A model generated the notes under the pieces. It was not told the DNA's origin and searched no databases. It worked only from the letters and a program-made list of their open reading frames with translations. A program made the translations under genes and the position numbers. A stretch of DNA of 64,000 nt from positions 248,001 to 312,000 of the forward strand of contig NZ_FWFX01000001.1 in NCBI RefSeq assembly GCF_900172335.1, written 5' to 3'. This DNA is from Roseovarius albus. Lineage in GTDB: Bacteria > Pseudomonadota > Alphaproteobacteria > Rhodobacterales > Rhodobacteraceae. This document shows positions 3,513 to 18,010 of the stretch, in pieces; position 1 is the first letter of the stretch; each line of letters opens with the position of its first letter.

Positions 3513-3642
3513 CAAAGGCTCCGGGTTGGTGGGCTGCATGATACTTAAGCTATGCGGGTTTAAGATCAAGTGAAATCATGTCACAGGGCCGCTTGGTGTT
3601 GCAGGCTTGCGCGGGGGCGGGACATGCTGGATACTTCGCGGA

Positions 3643-4401
3643 ATGAGATCGATTTTTTCCCATATTGCAGCAGTTTGCACGCTGTTCTGGCCTACTTGGG
3701 TTGTGGCGCAGCCGGATGTGACGGTGTTCGCAGCGGCCTCTTTGCGCGACGCATTAGAAGAGGCGGTGGCTGGCTATGAGGGACAGGTTGTGGTGTCTTA
3801 TGGCGGATCGGGTCAGATTGCGCGGCAGGTGGCACAGGGGGCCCCGGCGGATTTGATCATTCTCGCCAATGAGGCGTGGGTGGATTGGCTGGAAGAGCGT
3901 GAAGCGCTGGTGGCGCAGAGCCGGAACGACTTGGTGGGCAATCGCTTGGTTCTGGTTGGCCCCAGTGGGAGTGCGCCCCTGTCAGAGCCTACAAAAGAAG
4001 CCTTGTTCGAGCGGCTGGATGGCGGGCGTCTAGCAATTGGGCAGGTTGATGGGGTTCCTGCCGGGATTTATGGCCGCCAATGGTTAGAGGCGGTGGAACT
4101 GTGGTCTGTGTTTACCCCGCATCTGGCGCAGGCTGAAAATGTGCGCGCGGCCCTGTTATGGGTGGCGCGGGAAGAAGCGCCATTGGGCATTGTCTACGCC
4201 AGCGATGCGCAGGCTGAGGCATCAGTTGATGTGCTTTATGACATCCCTTCTAACCTGCATGATGAGATCGTCTATCCGATGGCCATGGTTGCGGGGCGCG
4301 AGAATACGCAGGCTGAGAGATTTGCGCTTTATCTGTACTCGCCCGCTGTGCAGGACATTTTTTTGCAGCAAGGCTTCATGGCCTTGGAGACTGAACAATG
4401 A
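3643..4401 (+). CDS. modA: Molybdate ABC transporter substrate-binding protein
   Basis: The periplasmic molybdate-binding protein of the ModABC importer, 252 aa. A signal peptide (hydrophobic stretch FSHIAAVCTLFWPTWVVA) is followed by VTVFAAASLRDALEEA, the ModA ligand-loop signature, then SYGGSGQIARQVAQGAPADL. A TTG 12 codons upstream is in frame, but the ATG at 3643 places the signal peptide correctly. The stop overlaps the modB start by 4 bp, so translation is probably coupled. Imported molybdate feeds molybdenum-cofactor enzymes. Confidence 0.93.
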   Translation: MRSIFSHIAAVCTLFWPTWVVAQPDVTVFAAASLRDALEEAVAGYEGQVVVSYGGSGQIARQVAQGAPADLIILANEAWVDWLEEREALVAQSRNDLVGNRLVLVGPSGSAPLSEPTKEALFERLDGGRLAIGQVDGVPAGIYGRQWLEAVELWSVFTPHLAQAENVRAALLWVAREEAPLGIVYASDAQAEASVDVLYDIPSNLHDEIVYPMAMVAGRENTQAERFALYLYSPAVQDIFLQQGFMALETEQ

Positions 4402-5087
4402 ACCTGCGCCCCGAAGAATGGGATGCCTTGTTGTTGTCACTCAAGGTTTCGGTCTGGGCTGTGGTGATCAGCCTACCGCTGGCTTTGCTGGTGGCGTGGC
4501 TGCTGGCGCGACGAGAGTTTCCGGGTAAGGCATTGCTGAGCGCGCTGGTGCATTTGCCTTTGGTCTTGCCGCCGGTGGTGACTGGTTATCTGCTGTTGTT
4601 GGCTTTTGGGCGCAACGGGGTGTTTGGCAAAGTGTTGGCCGACTGGGGGATCACGTTGGCGTTTCACTGGACTGGAGCGGCCTTGGCGGCTGCGATCATG
4701 GGGTTTCCCTTGGTGGTGCGTGCCATACGGCTTGCGATCGAGGCCGTGGATCCGAAGTTGGAACAAGCGGCGGAGACCTTGGGGGCAGGGCGTTTGCATG
4801 TCTTTGCTTTGGTGACACTGCCGTTGATACTGCCCGGGATTCTGGCGGGCGTTGTTTTGGGGTTTGCCAAGGCCATGGGGGAATTTGGTGCCACAATTAC
4901 CTTTGTAGCGAATATCCCGGGCCAGACGCAGACCTTGCCCTCGGCGATCTATGCGCTGTTGCAGGTGCCCGGTGGGGAGGCGGCAGCATTGCGGCTGGGG
5001 ATCTTGTCGCTGGTGGTAGCGATTGGCGCTGTGCTGCTGTCTGAATGGCTGGCGCGGCGCGTGGCGGAAAGGATTGGTCGGAAATGA
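4398..5087 (+). CDS. modB: Molybdate ABC transporter permease
   Basis: A 229-aa inner-membrane permease with about five transmembrane helices and the MetI-like coupling motif EQAAETLGAGRLHVFALVTL near residues 118-140, which docks on the ATPase. LPLVLPPVVTGYLLLLAFG and the late MGEFGATITFVANIPG stretch are characteristic of ModB. It overlaps modA and modC by 4 bp each (ATGA), so the three genes form one operon. Confidence 0.93.
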   Translation: MNLRPEEWDALLLSLKVSVWAVVISLPLALLVAWLLARREFPGKALLSALVHLPLVLPPVVTGYLLLLAFGRNGVFGKVLADWGITLAFHWTGAALAAAIMGFPLVVRAIRLAIEAVDPKLEQAAETLGAGRLHVFALVTLPLILPGILAGVVLGFAKAMGEFGATITFVANIPGQTQTLPSAIYALLQVPGGEAAALRLGILSLVVAIGAVLLSEWLARRVAERIGRK

Positions 5088-6172
5088 GCCTGTCTGTTTC
5101 GCTGTCGCATCGATATGGGGATTTTCACCTTGATCTGGCGTTCGAAGCCGGGCCCGGCGTAACCGCGATCTTTGGGCCGTCAGGGGCAGGAAAATCGACG
5201 GTAGCGCAGGCTATTGCCGGACTACTTAAACCAGATATGGGGCGCATTGCCCTGAATGAGCGAGTGTTGGTGGATGAAAGGACCTTTGTCTCCGCATCCA
5301 AACGGCGCGTTGGCTATGTGTTTCAGGACGGACGCCTTTTCCCGCATATGAACGTGGCAAAGAACCTGCGGTTTGGGGCACGGTTTGCGCCAAGCGCGCA
5401 TGACGTTTCTGAGGAAGGCAAGATCATTGAACTGCTAGGGTTGCAGGCGCTGCAGGAGCGGCGACCGCACCAGTTGTCGGGTGGAGAAAAGCAACGGGTA
5501 GCCTTGGCGCGGGCACTGTTGTCGCAGCCTGAATTGTTATTGTTGGATGAGCCATTGTCCGCTTTGGATGAACCGCGCAAAGAGGCAATCCTGCCCTATC
5601 TGGAACGGTTGCGTGATCAGGTTAACGTTCCGATCATCTATATCAGCCATTCCGTGGCTGAAGTGGCAAGATTGGCAGATCAACTGGTCATCCTTAAAGC
5701 GGGGCAAAAGGTTGCTGATGGGGCGGTGGAGATCGTGCTAAGCGACCCGGCGGCGCTTCCATTTGTGGGCGTGCGTCAGGCAGGGTCGGTTCTGCGAGCG
5801 CGGGTCGAGGAACATGGCTGTGATGGGTTGAGCCAACTTTCCGTTTCAGGTGGGGTACTGCATCTGCCTGGCATCTCGGCCCCGGTCGGGGCGCAACTGC
5901 GTGTTCGCATTTTGGCACAGGACGTTTTGATTTCATTGGAAGAGCCGCACGGTCTGTCATCGCGCAATGTAGTGCCGGTGGAAATCAGCGCATTACGGCG
6001 CGGGGATGGCCCGGGCGTGGCGGTGCAAATGATAGCGGGGCAGGATCGGCTGTTAGCGCGGATCACAGCCCGGGCGGCCGAGGAATTGGCGTTGCGACCG
6101 GGTTTGCGCTGTTTTGCGATTCTCAAGGCGACGGCCGTGCCCAGAGCGAGTATTTCACAAGGCGGCCACTGA
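5084..6172 (+). CDS. modC: Molybdate ABC transporter ATPase
   Basis: A 362-aa ATPase: Walker A GPSGAGKST, Q-loop VFQDGRLFPHM, signature LSGGEKQRVALARAL and Walker B LLLLDEPLSALD, followed by a C-terminal TOBE (molybdate-binding) domain from about residue 290. FQDGRLFPHM is typical of ModC. The start at 5084 overlaps the modB stop; an upstream ATG at 5045 lies inside modB and is not needed. No ModE-type regulator is seen nearby. Confidence 0.93.
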   Translation: MSLSVSLSHRYGDFHLDLAFEAGPGVTAIFGPSGAGKSTVAQAIAGLLKPDMGRIALNERVLVDERTFVSASKRRVGYVFQDGRLFPHMNVAKNLRFGARFAPSAHDVSEEGKIIELLGLQALQERRPHQLSGGEKQRVALARALLSQPELLLLDEPLSALDEPRKEAILPYLERLRDQVNVPIIYISHSVAEVARLADQLVILKAGQKVADGAVEIVLSDPAALPFVGVRQAGSVLRARVEEHGCDGLSQLSVSGGVLHLPGISAPVGAQLRVRILAQDVLISLEEPHGLSSRNVVPVEISALRRGDGPGVAVQMIAGQDRLLARITARAAEELALRPGLRCFAILKATAVPRASISQGGH

Positions 6173-7290: not shown

Positions 7291-8316
7291 ATGACTAAAT
7301 TCTTGCTTATTGCAGGGGGCGCGGCACTGGGCCTGACAGCGACAACTGCGAACGCTTTTGAGACCGGACGCTTGTCGGGATATCTTTCGATTGAGATCGA
7401 AAATGACTGGACCTTTGATTCATCGGATCCAGCTGCAGAAATCAGTGACACCTACACGACGATTGAAAGCGGTTTGTCGTTCGATTTTGGTGCGGGCTTC
7501 GCCCTGAATTCAACTCTGGTTTTCGAGCCAATCCGAGACGCAGAAGATGACCGCTTCTTTGAGGATGAAGGGCTGTACGCAGAAGAATTGTTCTTCTCGA
7601 AGGAACTGGGCACAGCGGAACTGAAACTGGGCAAATTTAACCCTGAGTTTGGATTTGCATGGGATGTGGCCCCAGGTATCTTTGGCGCAGATTTTGCTGA
7701 AGACTACGAAGTTACTGAGCGGATCGGTGGTGCGCTTTCTGTTCCATTCTCAGCCGCCGGTGGCGAGCATTCTTTCTCGGTCGGCGTGTTCAACGCAGAC
7801 CGCTCGATTCTGAGCAACTCACTAGGAGCGCGTCGTGGTCAGACAAGCCTGGGCAGTGGCGGCGTCTCAAACACCAACGGTGCTGAATCTTGGACGGCGA
7901 ACCTCTCGGGCGAATTCTCTAGCACGGTTTACACATTGGGAGTTCAGCACCAAGCGGCGGGTGAAGGCGACACGACTGATCAGGATGGGGCTGTTCTTGG
8001 CGTGATTCAAACCGTCGAAACAGGGTCAACCGCACTGGAACTGCTTGCTGAGGTTGTGTACTTCAATCACTACGATGGTGGTACAGAATCCGCTACATAC
8101 CTGAACCTTGGTGTGTCTGCTCCAGTTGGTCCAGTGACACTAGCGGGCGTTTATGGGCTGCGTGACATTGAAGGCGCATCTGCTGACAATCTGTTTACAG
8201 TTTCGGCCGAGATGGAGCTGTTCGGCGGTATCACCGGAGGGTTGGCCTATCGTTATGGCGACGAAGAAGGTGTCGACAGCCATACTCTCGGCACACTTCT
8301 GGCCTACGAATTCTAA
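7291..8316 (+). CDS. Outer-membrane beta-barrel (porin-like) protein
   Basis: A 341-aa protein with a clear signal peptide (ending TTANA|FE) and alternating amphipathic strands throughout. It ends in LLAYEF, the terminal aromatic expected of an outer-membrane barrel recognised by the Bam machinery. It is acidic and rich in Gly/Asp, as porins of marine alphaproteobacteria often are. It may be cotranscribed with the hemP operon 130 bp upstream, which would make it an iron- or haem-linked pore, but the spacing also allows its own promoter. Substrate unknown. Confidence 0.75.
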   Translation: MTKFLLIAGGAALGLTATTANAFETGRLSGYLSIEIENDWTFDSSDPAAEISDTYTTIESGLSFDFGAGFALNSTLVFEPIRDAEDDRFFEDEGLYAEELFFSKELGTAELKLGKFNPEFGFAWDVAPGIFGADFAEDYEVTERIGGALSVPFSAAGGEHSFSVGVFNADRSILSNSLGARRGQTSLGSGGVSNTNGAESWTANLSGEFSSTVYTLGVQHQAAGEGDTTDQDGAVLGVIQTVETGSTALELLAEVVYFNHYDGGTESATYLNLGVSAPVGPVTLAGVYGLRDIEGASADNLFTVSAEMELFGGITGGLAYRYGDEEGVDSHTLGTLLAYEF

Positions 8317-8340
8317 AGAGCAGTTGATTCGACCGTCGAT

Positions 8341-8366
8341 TCGGTGGTGTGTGTCCCCACCACCGA
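8341..8366. terminator. Hairpin between convergent genes
   Basis: TCGGTGGTG (8341-8349) pairs exactly with CACCACCGA (8358-8366) around an 8-nt loop. There is no T-run, but its place between the porin gene and the convergent kinase gene suggests transcript termination or 3'-end protection. Confidence 0.5.
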
Positions 8367-8389
8367 TGAGCAGCTAGATGAAAATAAAG

Positions 8390-9859
8390 TTAGTCAGTAA
8401 CGGCGATGGGAAGCGATACAGAAAAAATCGCCCCATCGCCGTTTTGCTTTTCTAGAGTGATCTGCCCCTTATGGGCTGCGATGATACGATGACAAAAGGC
8501 CAAGCCCACACCGGTGCCTTTGCCGACATCCTTGGTGGTAAACAGCGGATCAAAAATACGGTGCGCGATGGTTGGATCGACGCCGGGACCATCATCGGAA
8601 ATAAGCATCTTTATCTGTCCGGACGATGGGTCGGCTTCGCAGGTGTAATGGATGCGACTGCCTTGGCGCGCGTCACGCATGGCGTGCAGGGCATTGGTCA
8701 TGAGATTGATCACTACTTGCGTGATCTGAACATCGTCAACCATAATCTCGGGCAGTTGCGCAGGTAATCTACCTAGAATCCGTATGTTGGATTTAGCGGC
8801 TTCAGGCGCGACGACCTCGATGGCAGTGTCAAACAGGTGTTTCACTTCTGTAGATTTCAGATTTAGCTGCTCTTGTCGCGCTAAGGATAGGAAAGACCGC
8901 ACGATGTTGACGCAACGGTGGGCCGCGCGGGCCAGCTTATCAATACGATTCTCATGTGGGGATTGCTCCAGCTCTTCGCGCAGGATCTCGGCGTTACCGA
9001 CGATAATCGACAAAGGGTTGTTCAATTCATGCGCAATGCCGGCCAGCATCTCGCCAAGAGCGGATAGTTTTTCTGACAGAAACAACTGTTCCTGCTGGCG
9101 TTGTAATTCGTCCTGAACGGACAGTTCATGAGTTAGATCTTCGATGCTGGCGACAATTACATCTTCACCACGATAGTCGATTAGGCGTGCGGAAATTTCG
9201 GCAGAAAAGGTTGTTCCGTCCGGGCGCAGGCAGGTGGCGCGCATGTGGTCGGTCTTCTCGTCCGACAGAAGGGCCGTGACAAAATCACCACGCTCTTCGC
9301 GAAAGGCGAAGTAGGTGAAACTGCTTTTGGCGTTGCCGAGCAGTTGTGTTGCAGCGGGCGAGCGATAAAGGATCTGTCCATCGCCAACGCGGGCCATGAT
9401 CAGGCAAGTTGGACAGGCCTCTAGAACATTGCGCAATAGCGCTTCAGCTTCGCGTGCGGCATCGGCTTCTCCGGTGCTGTCGGATCCAGGGGCTTGCACA
9501 AGATAAAATCCACCATCCGAGGCGCTGGCGAGGCGAATTTCATAAAACCGACCTCGTCCAAAGGCTAATGTCACCGGCGCGGGAGCCTGGGGAATGTCGA
9601 GCAGGGCCGTTTCCAGGCTTTCGAGGGTCTGCGCAGCTTGGGCAGGCATGGCATGACGGTGCACGGCTTCGCGCAAGAAGATGTCCCACAGCAGGCCGGG
9701 CTCCAGCAAATCCTTGAGACCGGCGTACATGCCTTTGAAGGCGGGGTTTGCGAACCTGAGCCGTGCATCTGAATCAAACACGGCCAAACCTTCAGCCATG
9801 AACGCCACCGCCTCTTGCAGTGATAATGCGTCTTGGTCGTTTGTTGTGGCCAGCGACAT
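8390..9859 (-). CDS. PAS-domain sensor histidine kinase
   Basis: A 489-aa kinase with no transmembrane segment. It has a PAS-like domain at about residues 15-120, a second PAS at about 140-245, a HisKA dimerisation helix with the phospho-acceptor His277 in GIAHELNNPLS, and an ATPase domain with the N-box VVINLMTNALHAM, G1 DDGPGVD and G2 GKGTGVGLAFCH. There is no receiver domain. It starts 2 bp after the cyclase gene and is the last gene of the globin-cyclase-kinase operon. It is clearly related to the hybrid kinase at 15026 (shared YRSPA, HELNNPLS and CHRI.AAH patterns). The signal is probably cytoplasmic and may come from its two operon partners. Confidence 0.9.
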   Translation of the reverse strand: MSLATTNDQDALSLQEAVAFMAEGLAVFDSDARLRFANPAFKGMYAGLKDLLEPGLLWDIFLREAVHRHAMPAQAAQTLESLETALLDIPQAPAPVTLAFGRGRFYEIRLASASDGGFYLVQAPGSDSTGEADAAREAEALLRNVLEACPTCLIMARVGDGQILYRSPAATQLLGNAKSSFTYFAFREERGDFVTALLSDEKTDHMRATCLRPDGTTFSAEISARLIDYRGEDVIVASIEDLTHELSVQDELQRQQEQLFLSEKLSALGEMLAGIAHELNNPLSIIVGNAEILREELEQSPHENRIDKLARAAHRCVNIVRSFLSLARQEQLNLKSTEVKHLFDTAIEVVAPEAAKSNIRILGRLPAQLPEIMVDDVQITQVVINLMTNALHAMRDARQGSRIHYTCEADPSSGQIKMLISDDGPGVDPTIAHRIFDPLFTTKDVGKGTGVGLAFCHRIIAAHKGQITLEKQNGDGAIFSVSLPIAVTD

Positions 9860-9861
9860 GG

Positions 9862-10905
9862 TCAGGCCGTGCTGTCGTTAAGTTCTTCGATACGCACGCA
9901 CTCGAGAGATGCGCTATAGTCGGCAGAACCTGGTGGAACTGATTCCAGTTCAAACTTGCCATTCAGGGTGCCGGTGAAATCGGACGATGCGCAAATCGAC
10001 ATGGGTTCGGCGGCGGCCCGGAATTGCAAGGCCTCAGTCACAGTCGGACCGAAGACGTCGTAGATATAGTTTTGTGTCCCCACAACCGAACCGATGACGG
10101 AACCAGAAGCGACGCCGATGCGGGCCTGCCATTGGATCGGGTGGGTTTCATTTCGACGTTGCAGATAGCGTAGGAAACGGACGGCTGAATTGACTACGGC
10201 CAAGGCATGATCTTCGTTGGGGTCAGGGACGCCCGCAACAGCAACATAGCTGTCGCCATTGGTCCGGATGCGACGGCAGCCAAATTGTTCGCCGATGCGA
10301 TCCAACGCGCTGTAGATATCGTTGAGTTCGCTGACAATCACACCGGGATCTTGTTGTGAGGATAGATCATCGAAGCCAACGAAATCGAGCGATAGTACAG
10401 AGACGGGATCAAACAGACGTGGGGCGACGACCCCAAAGGTTTTGTACTCGTCATAAACCGCGCGTGGCATCATGTTGAGTAGCAGCTTTTCGACCTGTTC
10501 TTTCTCGCGTTTAATTTCATGAGTGTTACGCTCGACCATCATCGAATAGGAATCAATCATCGACTCCAACTCTTTGATTCTGGTGATGTTTTGGCAGACC
10601 AGAACGGCAATGTTTTGCGCCGTATCCGGCGTGTGGTTGAACTCCAATGCGACGGTCATCGTACGGCGGCGCAGCTTAAACGAAGTCTCGGTCGCGAGCT
10701 TACCACCGTTCGACATCTCAGCTGTGAGTGCATCAATGTCTAGGGCCGGAAATAGATCTCCCAGCTTGGCATTTGCATCATTTTCACCGAACCATTCATT
10801 GAACGTGTCGTTGCGAAAATGCAGTGTCATGTCGTCGAGGTCGATGAGGGCGACGCCGACGCCAATTGCGCGCAGGAGCTGCTCGTTGATGGCTTCAATT
10901 GACAT
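9862..10905 (-). CDS. PAS-coiled coil-class III cyclase homologue, probably degenerate
   Basis: A 347-aa protein with a PAS/HNOBA-like N-terminal domain (about 1-110), a signalling coiled coil (about 110-150, NTHEIKREKEQVEKLLLNMMP) and a class III nucleotide-cyclase domain (about 160-340). Both metal-binding Asp are kept (D174 in LDFVGF, D218 in TNGDSY), as is the purine-contacting Asp (D283 in YDVFG). In the GPTVTEALQF loop, however, the transition-state Asn is Thr290 and the Arg is Gln294, and the Lys before the second Asp is Arg214. The alpha subunit of soluble guanylyl cyclase has similar changes. A homodimer would lack key catalytic residues. The layout resembles soluble guanylyl cyclase without its haem domain, and a globin gene overlaps its start. 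Confidence 0.85.
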   Translation of the reverse strand: MSIEAINEQLLRAIGVGVALIDLDDMTLHFRNDTFNEWFGENDANAKLGDLFPALDIDALTAEMSNGGKLATETSFKLRRRTMTVALEFNHTPDTAQNIAVLVCQNITRIKELESMIDSYSMMVERNTHEIKREKEQVEKLLLNMMPRAVYDEYKTFGVVAPRLFDPVSVLSLDFVGFDDLSSQQDPGVIVSELNDIYSALDRIGEQFGCRRIRTNGDSYVAVAGVPDPNEDHALAVVNSAVRFLRYLQRRNETHPIQWQARIGVASGSVIGSVVGTQNYIYDVFGPTVTEALQFRAAAEPMSICASSDFTGTLNGKFELESVPPGSADYSASLECVRIEELNDSTA

Positions 10906-11266
10906 TTGGTTTCTCGATTAGGATCGCGCGACGGGCTTCGAACGCGCCAACAATGGTCTCAATGTCTTCTGGGGCAACCTCGAAATCCTCCAAAACGCCG
11001 GCGACGATCTCTTTCAGGCGATCAAAATGCAGGTCATGTATGTCCATATGGCGGTGGGCGCGTTCTATGTGGTCATCAGTGAACGAGGCGGGGCCACCCA
11101 TGAGGGACGAGACAAACTTTGTCTGGTGATCCATCAGTCTTGGCATATCGACATCGTCGAAAAAAGGGCCGACATCATCATCATCCAGCAGGCGGTTATA
11201 GAGTTCAAGCACCACCTTGCTGATGGTGGAGAAGCCACCGTATTTATCAAAAAGTGATCTTTCCAT
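10895..11266 (-). CDS. Group I truncated haemoglobin
   Basis: A 123-aa 2-on-2 globin. It has the N-terminal LFDKYGGFSTISKVV stretch, Tyr23 at the B10 ligand position in ELYNRLL, an E-helix MDHQTKFVSSLMGGP with polar residues (His47, Gln48) near E7/E11, and the proximal His71 in IERAHRHMDI. Such globins bind O2 or NO at the haem. Its 3' end overlaps the cyclase gene by 11 bp, so the two are probably co-translated. In this setting it may act as a sensor or ligand-delivery subunit for the PAS proteins rather than in detoxification (inference). Confidence 0.85.
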   Translation of the reverse strand: MERSLFDKYGGFSTISKVVLELYNRLLDDDDVGPFFDDVDMPRLMDHQTKFVSSLMGGPASFTDDHIERAHRHMDIHDLHFDRLKEIVAGVLEDFEVAPEDIETIVGAFEARRAILIEKPNVN

Positions 11267-11360
11267 TTGGCCCCCAAAGCGCGGAATACGCTGAATTTTA
11301 TACTTTTGCTGTGCTAATTCTTGGATTAAGGCAGGAAATTAACCTACGGTCAACATAGCA

Positions 11361-11412
11361 CAAAAGGCGCCCCTTGCCGGGTTGAGTGAAGTTTGTGGTC
11401 CAGCAAGGGGCG
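11361..11412 (-). terminator. Strong Rho-independent terminator after the micro-ORF pair
   Basis: Read on the minus strand, CGCCCCTTGC (11412-11403) pairs perfectly with GCAAGGGGCG (11377-11368); wobble pairs extend the stem to about 13 bp. It is followed by a short TTTT run (11365-11362). It ends the transcript of the two small ORFs about 10 bp after the second stop codon and separates them from the globin gene. Confidence 0.7.
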
Positions 11413-11421
11413 ATTGCTCTC

Positions 11422-11532
11422 CTAGATCATGGCGCAATCGAAACCGATGCGTTTGAAATAGGAGAGCTCCGGCAAGGGGGATTTGCGACGATGCGGGCGA
11501 TTTAACTCTCGGGACGGGACGGCGCGTGACAT
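11422..11532 (-). CDS. Predicted 36-residue basic protein
   Basis: A short ORF starting at ATG with a strong AAAGGA ribosome site about 7 bp upstream. The product begins MSRAVPSRELNRPHRRKSP and ends YFKRIGFDCAMI. It is rich in Arg, Lys and Pro and has one Cys. It begins 16 bp after the stop of the 39-residue ORF and is followed at once by a strong terminator. I recognise no family. The ribosome site, tandem arrangement and terminator are the support; the RNA itself could instead be the functional product. Confidence 0.45.
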   Translation of the reverse strand: MSRAVPSRELNRPHRRKSPLPELSYFKRIGFDCAMI

Positions 11533-11548
11533 GGATTTTTTCCTTTAG

Positions 11549-11668
11549 TTATTGAATCCAGCCATCGCGCTTCGAAGGCGTAATGGTGGGCAGGCCAGTC
11601 ATGCGGGTCATGACGTGGCGGGTAGTTTCACCAAAGCTGTGTTTGGAACGGCTGCTGTTGCGTTTCAT
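11549..11668 (-). CDS. Predicted 39-residue basic protein
   Basis: A short ORF with a GGAAGGA ribosome site 7 bp before the ATG. The product starts MKRNSSRSKHSFGETTRHVM and ends PSKRDGWIQ; it is strongly basic and has no membrane segment. It is the first of two tandem micro-genes between the decarboxylase gene and the globin operon, all on the same strand. A TTGACA-like sequence just upstream of the ribosome site is too close to act as its promoter, so the start of transcription is unclear. No known family matched. Confidence 0.45.
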   Translation of the reverse strand: MKRNSSRSKHSFGETTRHVMTRMTGLPTITPSKRDGWIQ

Positions 11669-11767
11669 GTTCTGGTCCTTCCGGGTGTCAAGTTATCTGT
11701 TCATGAAACTGTTATAGGCACTGCGCGTTTCAGCTTTAGGTCGGGGAATAAGTGTTTTGTTTCAGAT

Positions 11768-11784
11768 GTTTCAGGGAGCGAAAC
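11768..11784. promoter_or_regulatory. GTTTC/GAAAC inverted repeat upstream of the micro-ORFs
   Basis: GTTTC (11768-11772) and GAAAC (11780-11784) form an inverted repeat with a 7-bp spacer, and a further GTTTC lies just upstream. The site is about 100 bp in front of the 39-residue ORF. Similar GTTTC/GAAAC elements sit upstream of cysK-grx and the hybrid kinase. Confidence 0.35.
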
Positions 11785-11864
11785 GTTGTGCCAGACTTTG
11801 TCGGTGAAAGATGAAAACACCGCGATCAAGCGCGTTGATTAGGGTGCTTGCAACGTTTTCGCGT

Positions 11865-13280
11865 TCAGCCGCGGATCTCACGCCACAGGCGTTTCATCTT
11901 TTCCGACAATTCCAATACGTGGTGGGGCTTGGTTTTCAGGCTGAGGATTGACACCCGCAGGACGCAACGCTCTTGCCATTTGGCGATGCGAAAGAAATGG
12001 CTGCCGTCCGCATTGAGGGCCTGTTCCATTCTTTGCGTCATCTGGTCGGCGTCTTCATCGCCGCGCCCAAGATCAAACGACAAGATCAATTGATTGAGCA
12101 CCACATCGTTGTGGATAGTGATACCGGGTTCATCTGCGAGCGATTGCGCCAGAAGCTCTGCGCAGTGGCAATGATTGTCGATAAGATCGCGCACGCCTTG
12201 CTTTCCAAAGGCTCGCAGGGTGGCCCAGGCGGTAAAGCCGCGGGCACGCCGGGAGAGTTCGGGATTGAAATGCGTGGCATTGCGTCCGTCGCCGGGTGGA
12301 TCGGGCAGATAGCTGGCAGTGATATCCATCGCGCGGCGGTGGGCGGCACGGTCTTTGACGATAGCAAAGCCTGCATCAAATGGGATGTGCAACCATTTGT
12401 GCCCGTCGGTAGACCAGCTATCGGCGCGCTCGACACCATCGGCTAAAGCGTGCCTTGTGCTACTGCTGCGGGCCCAGAGGCCAAAGGCCCCGTCGATATG
12501 CAGCCAAGCGTCGTGTTCTTCTGAAAGATCAGCCATCGTGTGGAAATCTTCGAATGCGCCGGTGTTTATATGTCCAGCGGTGCCGACGATAATCTTGGGG
12601 CCTTGCGTCTGGTTCATTTGTTCGGCCAGATCGTCCGTCAGCATGCACCCCTGATCATCAGTTGCAATACGGGCAATGTTGCGGTTGCCAAACCCCAAAT
12701 AACGCAGAGCTGCGAGGTTTGAGGCATGCGTGTCATCTGAAATGAAAATCGTGACATGTGGGGCGGATTGCAGGCCATCTTCAGCAATATCATGACCGGC
12801 GCGGCGCAACACTTCGTCTCGCGCGGCGGCGAGCCCAATAAACCCGGCCATGGTCGCCCCTATGGTCAGGCCAACCGAGGACTGACGCGGCAAATCGAGC
12901 AGGTCGAGCACCCAGTTGCAGGCGGCTTCTTCGGCGGTGGATCCGGCGGGTGAGCATTGATAGATCCCACAGTTCTGCCCCCAGATCGAGGTGAGCCAAT
13001 CCGCGGCTACGCCTGCGGGATGAGAGCTACCCATGACCCAGGCGTAGAACCCTGATTGCGTGTTGCCGACCAGCCCAGGTTCGGCGGCGCGGATCAGGTC
13101 ATCTATGATCTGTTCAGCGGGTTGACCCTGTTCTGGCAACACACCGCCAAAGGACGCGCGAAGCTCTTCCAGCGTAGCGGTGGCATGCAGGTTGGTTTTG
13201 CCAGAACGATAGGTCGCGGCATATGCCGCGACCTTGTCAAATGGGATGTCTGAAATGGGAGAGGGAAGGGAATGTTTCAT
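11865..13280 (-). CDS. PLP-dependent group II decarboxylase
   Basis: A 471-aa fold-type I enzyme of the aromatic/glutamate decarboxylase group. The PLP-binding Lys is in STDGHKWLHIPFD (about residue 295), with LHIDGAFGLW carrying the cofactor-contacting Asp and TIGATMAGFIGLAAARDE forming the cofactor-phosphate region. Decarboxylation of an aromatic amino acid, glutamate, aspartate or a cysteine derivative are all possible. The chosen ATG overlaps the cysK-grx stop (ATGA), so the two are co-translated; an in-frame GTG 5 codons upstream is possible. The pairing with a cysteine-making enzyme raises the idea of a cysteine-derived substrate such as cysteine sulfinate or cysteate, which sequence alone cannot settle. 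Confidence 0.85.
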   Translation of the reverse strand: MKHSLPSPISDIPFDKVAAYAATYRSGKTNLHATATLEELRASFGGVLPEQGQPAEQIIDDLIRAAEPGLVGNTQSGFYAWVMGSSHPAGVAADWLTSIWGQNCGIYQCSPAGSTAEEAACNWVLDLLDLPRQSSVGLTIGATMAGFIGLAAARDEVLRRAGHDIAEDGLQSAPHVTIFISDDTHASNLAALRYLGFGNRNIARIATDDQGCMLTDDLAEQMNQTQGPKIIVGTAGHINTGAFEDFHTMADLSEEHDAWLHIDGAFGLWARSSSTRHALADGVERADSWSTDGHKWLHIPFDAGFAIVKDRAAHRRAMDITASYLPDPPGDGRNATHFNPELSRRARGFTAWATLRAFGKQGVRDLIDNHCHCAELLAQSLADEPGITIHNDVVLNQLILSFDLGRGDEDADQMTQRMEQALNADGSHFFRIAKWQERCVLRVSILSLKTKPHHVLELSEKMKRLWREIRG

Positions 13281-14752
13281 CTTGGGTGGACCCACTTTGG
13301 TAAAAATGAATAGGCATTAACGTTTTCTGACGGCGCAGTGGGCAGCCCAGCCACGACCATGCGAGTTTGCAGGCTACCGTCATTGAAGGCATCAAATGTT
13401 TCGGTGGCCCCGCCGATGTGCTCTCCGCCGACAAAGATCTGTGGAATGGTTGGCGCACCGGTGATCTGACGCAGCGCCGAGCGCATCTCAATGCCAAGAT
13501 TGTCGGGCTGGTAGGCAACGCTGTCAAGGTCGATGCTTTCATACTGGATGCCCGCCGCAGCGAACATCTTGCGCACGGACCAGCAAAATTCGCACCATTC
13601 CAGCGCGAAGACAACAACCGGCTTTTCGGCAATAATCTGGTTGACCCGCTCGATAATTTCGGGCCGCGCTGCTTGTTCTGCACCGGCGGGCGCAGCCGGA
13701 ACAGGGATGTCAAATCGCGTGCCGGGAGTGGATTGCGACAGTGCCATTTCCTCAGCGGTCATTTCGGTGGGGACATCCTCGAACAATGGCGTGGACAGGT
13801 ATCGCTCGCCTGTGTCAGGCAACATGGCGAGAATTTTGGAGCCCTTTGGCGCGGTCTTGGCCACCTCTAGCGCGGCGGCAAAGGTCGCGCCGCCGGTGAT
13901 GCCGCAAAAGATACCTTCTTTGCTGGCCAGTGCTTTGGCCATACTCAGGGCGTCGGACCCGGCAACGGGTTGAACCTTATCAATGAAACCTTGTTCAATT
14001 GACTGATTGGCGAGGTCGGAGATGAAATCAGGCGACCAGCCTTGCATCGGGTGCGGGCGAAATTCAGGATGGCTGTCGGCAGCGCTGCCATCGGGGTTGA
14101 ACGGCTGCACCATACCGCTACCCAGCAATTGGGCATTGTCCGGCTCAGCCGCGATGATGGCGGTGTTGGGGCTGTCACTGCGCAGAACGCGTGCCACGCC
14201 CGTGAGTGTCCCGCCAGTGCCAAAGCCAGTGACCCAGTAGTCCAGACCATTGGGGCCAAAGTCGCGCAGAATTTCTTGCGCAGTGGTGGTGCTATGTATG
14301 TCAGCGTTGGCGGGGTTTTCGAATTGGCGTGACATGAACCAGCCGTGTTCTTGGGCCAATTCGCGTGCCTTGGCGACCATGCCGCTGCCTTTGGCGGCGG
14401 CAGGGGTGAGAACCACCTTGGCCCCCAAAAAGCGCATTAGCTTACGGCGCTCGACACTGAAACTTTCGGCCATGGTGACCACAAGAGGATAGCCCTTTTG
14501 CGCGCAGACCATGGCCAGACCGATGCCGGTGTTGCCGCTGGTGGCCTCGACAATGGTCTGACCGGGTTGCAGGCTGCCGTCACGTTCGGCCGCCTCGATC
14601 ACTCCAAGGGCAAGGCGATCCTTGACCGATCCCATTGGATTGAAGGCCTCGAGCTTGACGAAAATGTCGACGTTGTTCGGGGCGAGGTTGTTGACCTTGA
14701 CGATGGGGGTGTTGCCGATCGTGTCGAGGATCGAGTGTTTTATCTGGGACAT
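13277..14752 (-). CDS. cysK: Cysteine synthase-glutaredoxin fusion protein
   Basis: A 491-aa two-domain protein. Residues 1-320 are O-acetylserine sulfhydrylase: PLP Lys44 in NPMGSVKDR, the phosphate loop TSGNTG at 71-76 and GFGTGGTLTG at 177-186. After a Pro/Ala-rich linker, residues 365-455 form a glutaredoxin with the active site WCEFC (Cys387, Cys390) and the substrate-groove motif GAPTIPQIFVGGEHIGG. Ordinary CysK ends near 310-330 residues, so the C-terminal 160 are extra. It may join sulfide incorporation to glutathione-dependent reduction. It is first in an operon with the decarboxylase and has GTTTC/GAAAC repeats in its promoter region. Confidence 0.9.
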   Translation of the reverse strand: MSQIKHSILDTIGNTPIVKVNNLAPNNVDIFVKLEAFNPMGSVKDRLALGVIEAAERDGSLQPGQTIVEATSGNTGIGLAMVCAQKGYPLVVTMAESFSVERRKLMRFLGAKVVLTPAAAKGSGMVAKARELAQEHGWFMSRQFENPANADIHSTTTAQEILRDFGPNGLDYWVTGFGTGGTLTGVARVLRSDSPNTAIIAAEPDNAQLLGSGMVQPFNPDGSAADSHPEFRPHPMQGWSPDFISDLANQSIEQGFIDKVQPVAGSDALSMAKALASKEGIFCGITGGATFAAALEVAKTAPKGSKILAMLPDTGERYLSTPLFEDVPTEMTAEEMALSQSTPGTRFDIPVPAAPAGAEQAARPEIIERVNQIIAEKPVVVFALEWCEFCWSVRKMFAAAGIQYESIDLDSVAYQPDNLGIEMRSALRQITGAPTIPQIFVGGEHIGGATETFDAFNDGSLQTRMVVAGLPTAPSENVNAYSFLPKWVHPR

Positions 14753-14855
14753 GAGATTTCCGATCTTAATGCAGTTGAACTGGGGCCAGCGAGTGGCGCT
14801 GATCTTGTTGTGCCAGCGCGAAGTTGCAGTCTGTTGTCGAAAAAAGAGGTTTTTT

Positions 14856-14916
14856 GTTTCAGTTGCGAAACACTTTTGTTTCGCTGAAGCGATCAGTTTT
14901 ATTGAATTTATTCAAT
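14856..14916. promoter_or_regulatory. Inverted repeats in the cysK-grx / hybrid kinase intergenic region
   Basis: GTTTC (14856-14860) and GAAAC (14867-14871) form an inverted repeat, with another GTTTC at 14878-14882. Next comes ATTGAA-TTTA-TTCAAT (14901-14916), a perfect 6-bp-arm palindrome. Two more GAAAC copies (14967-14971, 14999-15003) sit just before the hybrid kinase start. These are probable operators for one or both divergent genes. Confidence 0.4.
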
Positions 14917-15025
14917 AAATTGGGGGATCTTCAGCAACAGTTTTCCACGTCGACACTGTTACAATTGAAACAAAACGACGCCATGCTGAAAACGGTTTGA
15001 AACATTCGCGCGATAGGTGTTGAAC

Positions 15026-17257
15026 ATGACGTCGGAACCTCACCACGAACCCTTTATTCGTAACCCAGCTGCTGCTGACCTGGTCTGGGACGCTTTGGAA
15101 GCGCTCTCGGAAGGGATCGCGGTGTATGATGCAGACTATCGGCTGGTGACCTGCAATCAGCGATATGTTGATATGTTTCCTTTGATTGGCGATCTGATTG
15201 ATCGAGGCGCTGCGTGGGAGGACCTGTTGAGGGCAGGAGCCGAACGCGGCCAATACCGCAAAGCCTTGGGGCAGACCGAGGCGTGGATCGAAGGGCGCTT
15301 GCAAAATGGCGTGCCGGTCGGTGAGACACTCGAGATTGAACTGACGAACGGTCGTATCTATCAGGTACAATTCAGTGCCACCAAGAACAACGGTTTTGTG
15401 GTCGCGAATACAGATGTCACTGAACGCCGGAAGGCCGAAGTGGCGATGCGTGAACGTGAAACATTGCTTGCCACAGTGCTTGAAGCAAGCCCTGTGGCTG
15501 TTGTCATGGCGCGGCAAGGCGATGGGAAGATCCGATACCGTTCACCAGAAGCATTTCGTTTGTTTGGTCATACGGAGAGTGCAACGGAACATTATCTGAA
15601 CCAAAAGGATCGGCGGGACTATGTCGCTGCATTGGTAGCAGATGGTCAAGTTGATGATTACCGGGTCGCCTTGAAAGATGCGAGCGGTGCGCCCCGACCA
15701 ACAGCCTCGTGGGGACGGTTGATCGAGTTTGAGGACGACACTTATGTGGTGACCGCAATCATGGATCTTAGCGCCCAGCAGGAACGTGAGGACATGATCC
15801 GGCAGGTGTTGGAGGCTTGTCCCGCCCCCATTCAGATGACGAATGCTCACACGGGTGAAGTATTGTTTAGTAGCCCGGAAACCATTGCCTTGTTTGGACG
15901 GGTGGATAGCGCCAAACGGTTCTATGTTGATCCGAATTCGCGCGAGAACTATCTTAGAAAGCTACGCAAAGAAGGGTTCATTCAAGAGTTCAAGGCGCAG
16001 TATTTCAATGCCAACGGGGAGGCCTTCTGGGGCGCGGTTTCAGCACGCTTAATCGAATACAACGGCCAAGAAGTGATCGTGTCCCACACTCGGGATCTGA
16101 CCGAACAGCTGCGGATTGAGGCCGAGTTGTCGCAGCAACAGGACCAGTTGTATCAGAACGACAAGATGTCGGCGATGGGGGAACTGCTGGCCGGAGTGGC
16201 GCATGAGTTGAACAATCCGCTGTCCGTGGTGGTTGGGCATTCACTGATGCTGCGCGAAGATTGTCCGGACCCCGAGATATTGCGGCAGGTGGAAAAGATC
16301 AGCACCGCTGCCGAGCGTTGCGCGAAAATCGTAAAGACATTTCTGACCATGGCGCGGCAGCAGCCGGTCAAAATGCAGCGCGTGGACATCAATGATATTG
16401 TCCAAACGGCTATGGATGTGGCCAGTTATGGAGAGGCGGGTGAAGGATTGGATATGCAATGCCACCTGACGTCAGCGCTGCCCGAGATCTGTGCCGATCC
16501 GGATCAGATCACGCAGGTGGTGATCAACCTGATCCTGAATGCAGAACAAGCCATTCGCGAGAGTGGCCTTGGTGGGCAGATCACGGTTGCCACCGCGCGC
16601 GCTGAAGATGCTAAAACCATTGAGATACGTGTTGAAGATGACGGGCCTGGTATTGCCAAGGATCTTCGAAGTCGTGTGTTCGAGCCGTTTTTTACTACCA
16701 AGGATGTGGGGCAAGGCACCGGGATCGGGCTGGCCCTGTGTCACCGGATCGTCGCGGCTCACAATGGACAGATTTCGCTGGATGCAAGTCCGGACGGGGG
16801 AACCGTTTTTACGATTTTTCTGCCGGTCAAAGAGGCGCAGAGCAAAGTGGACTCTCCGGACGGGGCTGGCAATGCGGCATCGCACATTCGTGTGTTGATT
16901 GTTGATGACGAGGAAGATGTGGCCGAATTGAATGCGGAAATTCTGACGCGTGCAGGCTATGAGGTAGACGTGTTCAACGAGGCGGGGTTGGCGCTCGAAA
17001 CGTTACGTGAGCACGACTATGGTCTGATCTTAAGCGACCTGAATATGCCCGAGGTAGACGGCCGGATATTTTTTGAGACCATAAAACGCGAATTTCCTGA
17101 TATGGTTAATAAAACTGGATTTGTGACGGGGGATACGATGGGCCGATCATCGCAGACATTTTTAGGCGAAGCGCAGCGGCCCTGCATCGAGAAACCTGTG
17201 TCGCCCAAAGAGCTGCGCGCATTTGTCAGCGAGTTGATTGCAAAGGGATCGAAATGA
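15026..17257 (+). CDS. Triple-PAS hybrid histidine kinase
   Basis: A 743-aa cytoplasmic hybrid kinase. It has PAS-like domains at about 20-135, 140-255 and 255-365, HisKA with phospho-acceptor His393 in GVAHELNNPLS, and an ATPase domain (VVINLILNAEQAI, DDGPGIA, GQGTGIGLALCH). A C-terminal receiver from about 620 has phospho-acceptor Asp671 in LSDLNMP. Domains 2 and 3 and the kinase core resemble the kinase at 8390. The frame opens at a GTG three codons earlier (15017), but AGGTG is better placed for the ATG. It overlaps the downstream regulator by 4 bp, so the two form a phosphorelay pair. Confidence 0.9.
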   Translation: MTSEPHHEPFIRNPAAADLVWDALEALSEGIAVYDADYRLVTCNQRYVDMFPLIGDLIDRGAAWEDLLRAGAERGQYRKALGQTEAWIEGRLQNGVPVGETLEIELTNGRIYQVQFSATKNNGFVVANTDVTERRKAEVAMRERETLLATVLEASPVAVVMARQGDGKIRYRSPEAFRLFGHTESATEHYLNQKDRRDYVAALVADGQVDDYRVALKDASGAPRPTASWGRLIEFEDDTYVVTAIMDLSAQQEREDMIRQVLEACPAPIQMTNAHTGEVLFSSPETIALFGRVDSAKRFYVDPNSRENYLRKLRKEGFIQEFKAQYFNANGEAFWGAVSARLIEYNGQEVIVSHTRDLTEQLRIEAELSQQQDQLYQNDKMSAMGELLAGVAHELNNPLSVVVGHSLMLREDCPDPEILRQVEKISTAAERCAKIVKTFLTMARQQPVKMQRVDINDIVQTAMDVASYGEAGEGLDMQCHLTSALPEICADPDQITQVVINLILNAEQAIRESGLGGQITVATARAEDAKTIEIRVEDDGPGIAKDLRSRVFEPFFTTKDVGQGTGIGLALCHRIVAAHNGQISLDASPDGGTVFTIFLPVKEAQSKVDSPDGAGNAASHIRVLIVDDEEDVAELNAEILTRAGYEVDVFNEAGLALETLREHDYGLILSDLNMPEVDGRIFFETIKREFPDMVNKTGFVTGDTMGRSSQTFLGEAQRPCIEKPVSPKELRAFVSELIAKGSK

Positions 17258-17964
17258 CGAGTACGGCTACACTTTTGGTCTGTGATGATGAGCCTGATGT
17301 ACGCGAGATGTTGCAGGAGTATCTGTCGAAACGTGGCTTCGAGATTGTCGCCGCCGCCAACAGCGACGAATTACGCAGTGCCATAGAGACACATCAGATT
17401 GATCTGATTTTGCTGGATATCAATATGCCGGGCGAGGATGGTCTGACCACCTTGCGAGGGCTGCGCAGTGACAATCAGGTGCCGGTGGTCATGTTGACCG
17501 CAGCCGGTGAGGTGATCGACAAAATCGTCGGACTTGAAATGGGCGCAGACGATTATCTGGCGAAGCCGGTTGATCTGCGCGAGTTGGAGGCACGGATAAA
17601 GGCGGTCTTGCGCCGTCAATCAGAGCCAGCATCAGAGGTCATGATGACGGATGCGCCCGAGCGCGCGCCGTTTGGAACGTTCACACTGGACCTGACGGCG
17701 GCGAAGCTGCGCGATGCCGAGGGGCAGGAGGTGGCGCTGACGGCGATGGAGTTTAACCTGCTGGCCCTTTTCGCCCGCAACAGAGGTCGGGTCTTGAACC
17801 GCGACCAGATTCTAGAGCAGGCGCATGATCGCTCCTGGGATCCATTTGATCGCAGCATCGATATACGCATTTCGAGGCTGCGTCGCAAGATTGAGGCCAA
17901 CCCGCAAAAGCCGCAGATCATCAAGACCGTGCGTGGTATCGGGTATATTTACGATCCAGATTGA
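17254..17964 (+). CDS. OmpR/PhoB-family response regulator
   Basis: A 236-aa two-domain regulator: a receiver (1-120) with acidic pocket DDE at 11-13, phospho-acceptor Asp55 in LLDINMPGEDG and Lys in DYLAKPVDLRELEARI, then a winged-helix DNA-binding domain (about 140-232) ending SIDIRISRLRRKIEANP...GIGYIY. It is translationally coupled to the hybrid kinase, which should be its phosphodonor. The related kinase at 8390 lacks its own regulator, so this protein may also serve it (inference). Confidence 0.92.
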   Translation: MTSTATLLVCDDEPDVREMLQEYLSKRGFEIVAAANSDELRSAIETHQIDLILLDINMPGEDGLTTLRGLRSDNQVPVVMLTAAGEVIDKIVGLEMGADDYLAKPVDLRELEARIKAVLRRQSEPASEVMMTDAPERAPFGTFTLDLTAAKLRDAEGQEVALTAMEFNLLALFARNRGRVLNRDQILEQAHDRSWDPFDRSIDIRISRLRRKIEANPQKPQIIKTVRGIGYIYDPD

Positions 17965-17986
17965 TACGCTCAATGTTCCTGTAAAA

Positions 17987-18010
17987 CACCCCGCCTGAAA
18001 CGGGGTGCTT
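17987..18010. terminator. Bidirectional terminator
   Basis: CACCCCG (17987-17993) and CGGGGTG (18001-18007) form a stem with a 7-nt loop. It is flanked by AAAA on the left and CTTATT on the right, between two convergent genes, and so can end transcripts from both sides. Confidence 0.7.

Follow-up and report, generated by a model that had tools for sequence, protein, structure and literature searches.

What might a haem protein, a cyclase homologue that lacks two catalytic residues and a histidine kinase do together? The question is raised by a 64,000-nucleotide stretch of the Roseovarius albus genome (contig NZ_FWFX01000001.1, positions 248,001 to 312,000; the whole stretch is referred to as the window), in which a group 1 truncated globin, a homologue of class III cyclases and a receiver-less histidine kinase are encoded in one tight operon. 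Comparison with related loci revealed a conserved globin-cyclase pair and a single clade in which a kinase gene follows the cyclase gene and the transition-state residues of the cyclase are lost; this pattern suggests that the output changed from cyclic AMP (cAMP) to phosphate transfer where the kinase joined the operon. The three genes of the window are as follows (aa, amino acids; AF2, AlphaFold2):

10895..11266 (-) group 1 truncated globin, 123 aa, with Tyr23, His47, Gln48 and His71; identified by Pfam, alignments and an AF2 model
9862..10905 (-) PAS/coiled coil/class III cyclase homologue, 347 aa; identified by Pfam, family alignment, AF2, Foldseek and VIA
8390..9859 (-) two-PAS histidine kinase without a receiver, 489 aa; H-box His, N-box Asn and G-box Gly present

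The globin and cyclase genes overlap by 11 bp (10895-10905), and 2 bp (9860-9861) separate the cyclase gene from that of the kinase; coordinates, order, overlap and gap are exactly as given in the initial annotation of the window.

The globin-cyclase pair

A scan of bacterial genomes yielded 78 loci with a relative of the window cyclase; their sources are roseobacters, genera that include Nitratireductor, Oricola and Hoeflea, sphingomonads (Novosphingobium and Qipengyuania among them) and other bacteria. In all 78 the gene immediately upstream of the cyclase gene encodes a globin, the two genes are separate and unfused in every case, and the spacing between them ranges from -11 to +10 bases when the starts are set by alignment. 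Because the globin gene holds this position in 78 of 78 loci, the association is more than chance, and the observation made in the window is real and conserved. In a class-wide search, 23 of 385 genomes matched the cyclase at E 1e-40, 17 of them (the genome under study included) over most of the protein, and a globin gene was found beside the cyclase in all 16 other loci, one of which has a cyclase broken by stops (L127) and another of which (L113) is identical to L075. Within the family of R. albus, 15 of 198 genomes matched at E 1e-80. No relative outside the class was found in the phylum sample, in which 3 of 398 genomes matched (E 1e-60), all within the class. The distribution of the pair is patchy.

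The order of all three genes is kept outside close relatives (42 of 105 aligned rows), against the possibility raised earlier that it might be confined to them. As judged from these sequences, the conserved unit is the globin with the cyclase and not the three genes that the initial annotation had taken as the basic system; the pairing of a globin with a seemingly intact cyclase is the more widespread one, and the operon kinase is most simply seen as a later addition in one clade.

The assignment of the globin to group I was upheld by a Pfam Bac_globin match of 52.2 bits (cut-off 21) and by its nearest relatives in the PDB, which are also group 1 truncated haemoglobins (trHbs). It was aligned to Tetrahymena trHb and its mutants and to Synechocystis cyanoglobin, in which a His matches His47. 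Tyr23, His47, Gln48 and His71 align to what we take to be B10, E10, E11 and the proximal His, and a haem-binding pocket is expected because of this alignment. The first three residues are present in all 78 rows with a letter there and His71 is present in all 79; the AF2 model has a predicted local distance difference test score (pLDDT) of 83.5. Sequence type and predicted haem pocket are shared with Synechocystis cyanoglobin, M. tuberculosis HbN and Tetrahymena trHb, from which the window globin differs in being the dedicated operon partner of a cyclase homologue. We infer that it binds haem and a ligand and is in physical contact with that homologue.

The cyclase homologue matched Guanylate_cyc of Pfam with 107.6 bits (cut-off 21.9); matches to PAS_8 (20.3) and HNOBA (18.4) were both under the cut-off. 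Its AF2 model has a mean pLDDT of 75.2 and is poor in the N-terminus and linker. A Foldseek search with this model returned chains of soluble guanylate cyclase (sGC) at all ranks from 1 to 15, over 370-400 columns, which backs the sGC-type PAS/coiled-coil/cyclase layout put forward in the initial annotation. Both metal Asp (Asp174 and Asp218) are kept, as had been noted, together with Arg214 and Asp283, the last presumably as in adenylyl cyclases, and Thr290 and Gln294 stand in the alignment at the positions of the transition-state Asn and Arg. The homology domain and metal Asp of a catalytic class III cyclase are present in the window protein, and the transition-state Asn/Arg pair is absent.

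In the order and fold of its PAS, coiled-coil and cyclase parts, the protein is the same as sGC, the animal receptor for nitric oxide (NO), and the sGC alpha subunit is presumably of the same type in having the metal Asp and no Asn/Arg pair. It differs from sGC in that H-NOX is missing, that a truncated globin with a gene of its own takes the place of the haem domain, that Asp283 is as in adenylyl cyclases, that no complementary partner was seen by eye among the 11 other cyclase domains of the genome and that the next gene encodes a kinase. The chain begins at PAS, and no HNOB match was found at E 0.01; on its model the protein is laid out like sGC minus H-NOX and, because that domain is absent, is not a member of sGC. 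In bacterial H-NOX/histidine kinase operons, a gene for a stand-alone haem sensor lies beside a kinase gene; in the window the haem fold is another, and a cyclase homologue is placed between sensor and kinase. Globin-coupled sensors such as AfGcHK (PMC8697598) share the proposed logic of a signal from globin to histidine kinase, but in the window the globin is unfused, is a group 1 truncated one and has a pseudo-cyclase between it and the kinase. A signalling helix common to histidine kinases and guanylyl cyclases is reported in PMC1592074. No description of a globin/pseudo-cyclase/kinase make-up was found in open-licence papers.

Catalytic residues and the operon kinase

The Asn/Arg pair was compared with the presence of a kinase gene directly downstream of the cyclase gene. 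Among 105 rows, the pair is lost in 42 of 42 with such a kinase and in 3 of 63 without, the other 60 keeping it; in an earlier set of 79 rows, both residues were found in none of 40 with a downstream kinase and in 37 of 39 without. Of the later-fetched loci, L145 and L150 have an operon kinase and have lost the pair, eight loci without a kinase keep it, and L154 is an exception; the more distant rows L117-L126 and L128 also keep it. About 1.5 kb past the cyclase was covered in L146, L148, L149 and L151-L153, and L120, in which a weak same-strand kinase open reading frame (ORF; E 3e-26) lies more than 2 kb downstream, was scored as having no operon kinase.

The exceptions are L056, L076 and L154. 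L056 has a cyclase of the kinase clade, a flank without a kinase and a genome without a match to the hybrid kinase described below at E 1e-100. Between L076 and L070 there are 16 differences in 347 positions, two of them at 290 and 294 (Val and Met in L076), and by this comparison L076 is a recent separate loss of both transition-state residues. L154 is on a long branch, and its globin gene stands head to head with genes for a hybrid kinase and a regulator.

A tree was built without the columns around the trait and rooted at the midpoint; L127 and the duplicates L089-L105, L143 and L144 were omitted, L121 was a partial row, and among the near-duplicates L155 is almost L118 and L124 almost L125. 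The kinase-operon rows form one branch (42 rows and L056) with a Shimodaira-Hasegawa-like approximate likelihood ratio test (SH-aLRT) value of 100, amid rows that keep the pair, and parsimony requires at least two changes in the operon kinase and three in the Asn/Arg pair. With L076 set aside, 82 sites are invariant in the branch that has the Asn/Arg pair; 65 of these are still conserved at 95% or more in the kinase clade, where only positions 176, 290, 294 and 330 exceed 2 bits of entropy. Asp218 and Asp283 are present in all 42 kinase rows and Asp174 in 40, and position 214 is Lys or Arg throughout (42/42). In the kinase clade, the transition-state site appears to have been released and the PAS, coiled-coil, metal and adenine positions to have been held, as would fit the non-catalytic nucleotide-binding module proposed in the initial annotation; this conservation after the joining of the kinase gives weight to what is a single event of residue loss. 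The clade shares only the loss of the Asn/Arg pair, and the Thr290/Gln294 pair as such is not conserved. It was rejected as a signature, since position 290 is Ile in 13, Thr in 10, Ser in 6, Glu in 6, Ala in 5, Val in 1 and Asn in 1 of the 42 rows.

A second kinase and a regulator are encoded on the opposite strand:

15017..17257 (+) hybrid histidine kinase with PAS and receiver, 746 aa; identified by Pfam and the kinase tree
17254..17964 (+) OmpR-family response regulator, 236 aa; 4-bp overlap with the hybrid kinase gene

The operon kinase has Pfam matches to HisKA and HATPase_c, with PAS_7 (21-118) and PAS_9 (153-243) over the cut-off and no receiver, and the H-box His, N-box Asn and G-box Gly are found in 40 of 40 aligned operon kinases, as in an orthodox histidine kinase. 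In a kinase tree from which fragments of less than 180 aa were omitted, the operon kinase and the hybrid kinase are paralogues. Two types of operon were distinguished: in type 1 the kinase has a receiver and is often followed by an OmpR-type regulator, and in type 2, to which the window belongs, the kinase is receiver-less. A near end-to-end match to the window hybrid kinase was found in 7 of 7 genomes of the receiver-less type that were searched (L003, L009, L014, L017-L020), and the hybrid kinase is inside the fetched stretch at seven receiver-less loci (the window, L004, L006, L008, L011, L013 and L023), being cut before the receiver in L004 and L006; the tally of second kinases leaves aside L016, L022, L145 and L150. 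L010 and L025, which are of the receiver type, match the hybrid kinase only over 331-741, in ORFs as long as their own operon kinase. Because receiver-less types also have a second kinase and the H and N boxes are kept, phosphate transfer from the operon kinase to the hybrid-kinase receiver or to the regulator is plausible. Beyond the operon kinase, which the initial annotation named as the output, the circuit seems also to include the hybrid kinase and the OmpR-type regulator.

Proposed signalling chain and its alternatives

The locus may encode a haem sensor split over two chains, one that carries the haem and one that signals, with a truncated globin as the dedicated partner of an sGC-like protein without H-NOX. 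The ancestral cyclase, with its catalytic residues, probably made cAMP under globin control. In the clade of the window, the two transition-state residues are gone, the metal and adenine residues are kept and a histidine kinase has been added to the operon. The ligand or redox state of the globin would alter the PAS/coiled-coil/pseudo-cyclase protein, which with ATP bound would set the activity of the operon kinase; phosphate would pass to the hybrid-kinase receiver, to the OmpR-type regulator or to both, and the regulator would bind TGTTTCA repeats and control the locus itself. To this chain as a whole, from globin through ATP-binding pseudo-cyclase and kinase to receiver or regulator, we assign a probability of roughly 0.5. 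More tentatively, and at a little under even odds, a globin-controlled adenylyl cyclase would have become an ATP-binding pseudo-cyclase giving two-component input on duplication of the kinase of the neighbouring circuit into the operon, with intact and converted forms coexisting in alphaproteobacteria.

Haem-based sensors are a known kind, here with an unusual evolutionary history. If the proposal is true, it shows a second-messenger enzyme converted into a signalling adaptor, with living stages that comprise globin and cyclase only, a divergent kinase-regulator pair with intact cyclase residues, and an operon kinase with lost residues; the system would be a bacterial split counterpart of the NO receptor, separable gene by gene.

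An operator-like repeat occurs at two places in the window:

11758..11773 (+) exact copy of the operator-like direct repeat TGTTTCA-N2-TGTTTCA, 492 bp before the start codon of the globin
14957..14972 (-) operator-like TGTTTCAATTGTAACA, which departs from the strict repeat at two positions; lies between the genes for cysteine synthase-glutaredoxin and the hybrid kinase

Two matches at no more than two mismatches in the 64-kb window are not beyond chance alone (6 of 100 shuffles), and the case for the repeat is therefore made by the relatives. In loci of a first arrangement, the repeat, with its 9-bp period, lies between the kinase-regulator pair and the globin operon. In many loci of a second arrangement it is found about 180 bp upstream of the globin, with more copies near +4 kb and among upstream neighbours. 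The 44 regions 5' of the divergent hybrid kinase have a mean of 4.1 copies of TGTTTCA/TGAAACA each, and mononucleotide shuffles of them 0.05. A repeat of at least 13/14 anywhere in the fetched locus is common to 67 of the 78 related loci (Markov simulations 0, 0, 2). The five additional loci that have the kinase all contain one (simulations 1, 0, 0), as does one of 16 orthologous loci that lack kinase and regulator (0, 0, 0). These counts are descriptive, the loci being related and the motif having been discovered in some of them. The relaxed pattern TGTTTCANNTGTWWCA has two exact matches in the R. albus genome, both at this locus; in six other genomes it has six exact matches, in four genomes, all in or beside the locus by coordinates. 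The encoded OmpR-type regulator is the obvious candidate for the protein that binds the repeat. Genome-wide matches at one mismatch were barely above a reversed control and included many palindromes, so only exact matches were used. Palindromes TGTTTCACGTGAAACA at C28:129298 and C28:131188 of the R. albus genome are matched by the repeat pattern at one mismatch; the palindromes among such matches, these included, are presumably of parS type.

Several observations weigh against the chain. The kinase-operon state arose once, and since the kinase rows are one clade, its match with the residue loss is one event and has no statistical weight; an independent-pairs test rests on two pairs only. The pair is also lost in L076 and L154, which have no operon kinase. 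Arg294 is kept in 17 of the 42 kinase rows and Asn290 in one, and Asp174 is lost in L009 and L145, which weakens the idea of ATP binding there. Full-length sGC matches to the cyclase model, poor in its N-terminus and linker, have root-mean-square deviations (rmsd) of 24-37 Å and template-modelling (TM) scores near 0.5; in VIA-align, isolated cyclase domains come top (Z up to 23.5) and multi-domain sGC chains follow at Z 19.5-21.1, also with large rmsd, which is taken as the result of differing hinge angles. The repeat falls below 13/14 in 11 of the 78 loci (L003, L016-L020, L022, L023, L026, L048 and L055). Direct control of the globin operon by the repeat is doubtful in the window because 492 bp, two small ORFs and a strong hairpin lie between them; the repeat may mainly control the small ORFs, with the globin expressed through read-through or from its own promoter, which argues against a simple reading of the repeat there. 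Loss of activity in the window cyclase is not certain, because PMC4886424 treats some proteins with another residue at the Asn position as possible cyclases and compares cyclase-like proteins with Ile for Asn with the atypical Rv1900c, which has His there.

The direction of the signal could be the reverse, with the two-component system as the sensor and the globin-cyclase(-kinase) operon as one target that has a separate local task. The position of the repeat, close to the kinase-regulator pair and also ahead of the globin gene or its operon, agrees with this, as does the location of both exact relaxed-pattern matches of the genome at the locus. We consider it somewhat unlikely, because orthologues without a nearby kinase or regulator keep the globin-cyclase pair, which points to a task of the pair's own, and because the catalytic loss in the operon-kinase clade would be left unexplained.

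Alternatively, the cyclase might still be active by a non-standard mechanism, its output still cAMP, with the kinase merely sharing the operon. Such activity would be compatible with the retained metal and base residues, with the retention of Arg294 in part of the kinase-operon rows, and with the Ile-for-Asn proteins and Rv1900c mentioned above; it is judged improbable in view of the loss of both residues in the window and the free variation of positions 290 and 294 (2.39 and 2.50 bits in the kinase clade), unlike a new conserved active site. A complementary partner was sought among the 11 other cyclase domains of the genome, none of which has Asn/Arg but no metal Asp (alignment, by eye).

That the globin is an enzyme detoxifying NO or O2, the cyclase a decaying remnant and the genes joined only by a common regulator, with no sensor pair for the kinase, would suit the Tyr B10/Gln E11 distal pocket, which we take to be that of NO-dioxygenating group 1 globins, and also the common repeat and the redox enzymes, OsmC and second globin family among the neighbours, but is quite unlikely, since 65 of 82 invariant sites, among them those of PAS and coiled coil, are kept, which is hardly to be expected of a protein in decay, since the strict adjacency in 78 of 78 loci with small overlaps or gaps suggests a complex, and since a scan for FNR/Nnr-type boxes found 36 sites in the window, where 27.4 were expected, and none in 11267-11864.

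Small open reading frames and neighbouring genes

Between the repeat and the globin, and among the upstream neighbours, the following features were recorded (PLP, pyridoxal phosphate):

11549..11668 (-) small ORF 1, 39 aa, unannotated; conserved C-terminus RDGWI
11422..11532 (-) small ORF 2, 36 aa, unannotated; conserved C-terminus FDxAMI
11368..11412 (-) strong hairpin followed by a T-rich stretch, in the gap that separates small ORF 2 from the globin; may be a terminator or an attenuator
13277..14752 (-) cysteine synthase-glutaredoxin fusion; recurs beside the operon in related loci
11865..13295 (-) PLP-dependent decarboxylase; likewise a recurring neighbour

Both small ORFs have a purine-rich stretch before the start codon. 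The C-terminus of small ORF 1 recurs in L005, L006, L011, L017, L019 (as KDGWI) and L020, and that of small ORF 2 in L004, L005, L006, L008 and L011. As members of a widespread family they were rejected: 14 and 3 of 248 family genomes, respectively, matched at E 0.01, only the R. albus genome strongly, and the other matches (E 0.0015-0.0094) are chance-like. Neither belongs to a Pfam or NCBIfam family, the best match, DUF7626 (E 0.043), being under the cut-off. The hairpin region (11351-11425) folds at -28.7 kcal/mol (z -3.14), and in five relatives the best 60-base fold between small ORF 2 and globin, given here as computed with no shuffle control, has -19.6 to -28.2 kcal/mol at varying positions. 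No Rfam family was found in 8000-18000 at gathering cut-offs. A sigma-70 scan gave 2 sites against 2.7 expected, and a terminator scan limited to loops of 3-8 gave 8 against 4.3, the hairpin at 11368-11412 not being among them.

Recurrent neighbours in part of the loci are the cysteine synthase-glutaredoxin fusion, the PLP decarboxylase, two flavin adenine dinucleotide (FAD) enzymes, OsmC, an alpha/beta hydrolase, a methyltransferase and a second type of globin. These neighbours suggest, if only weakly, a setting of redox or sulphur stress. Together, the fusion and the decarboxylase (11865-14752) could, we presume, make a taurine-type product. In L024, L025, L061, L077 and others, a globin of the other Pfam family (PF00042, as tested on the L024 copy) is encoded after the regulator, and the repeat has a copy close to it. 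Elsewhere in the window, at 3607-6172, three adjoining genes resemble a molybdate-type ATP-binding cassette (ABC) transporter when their translations are read by eye.

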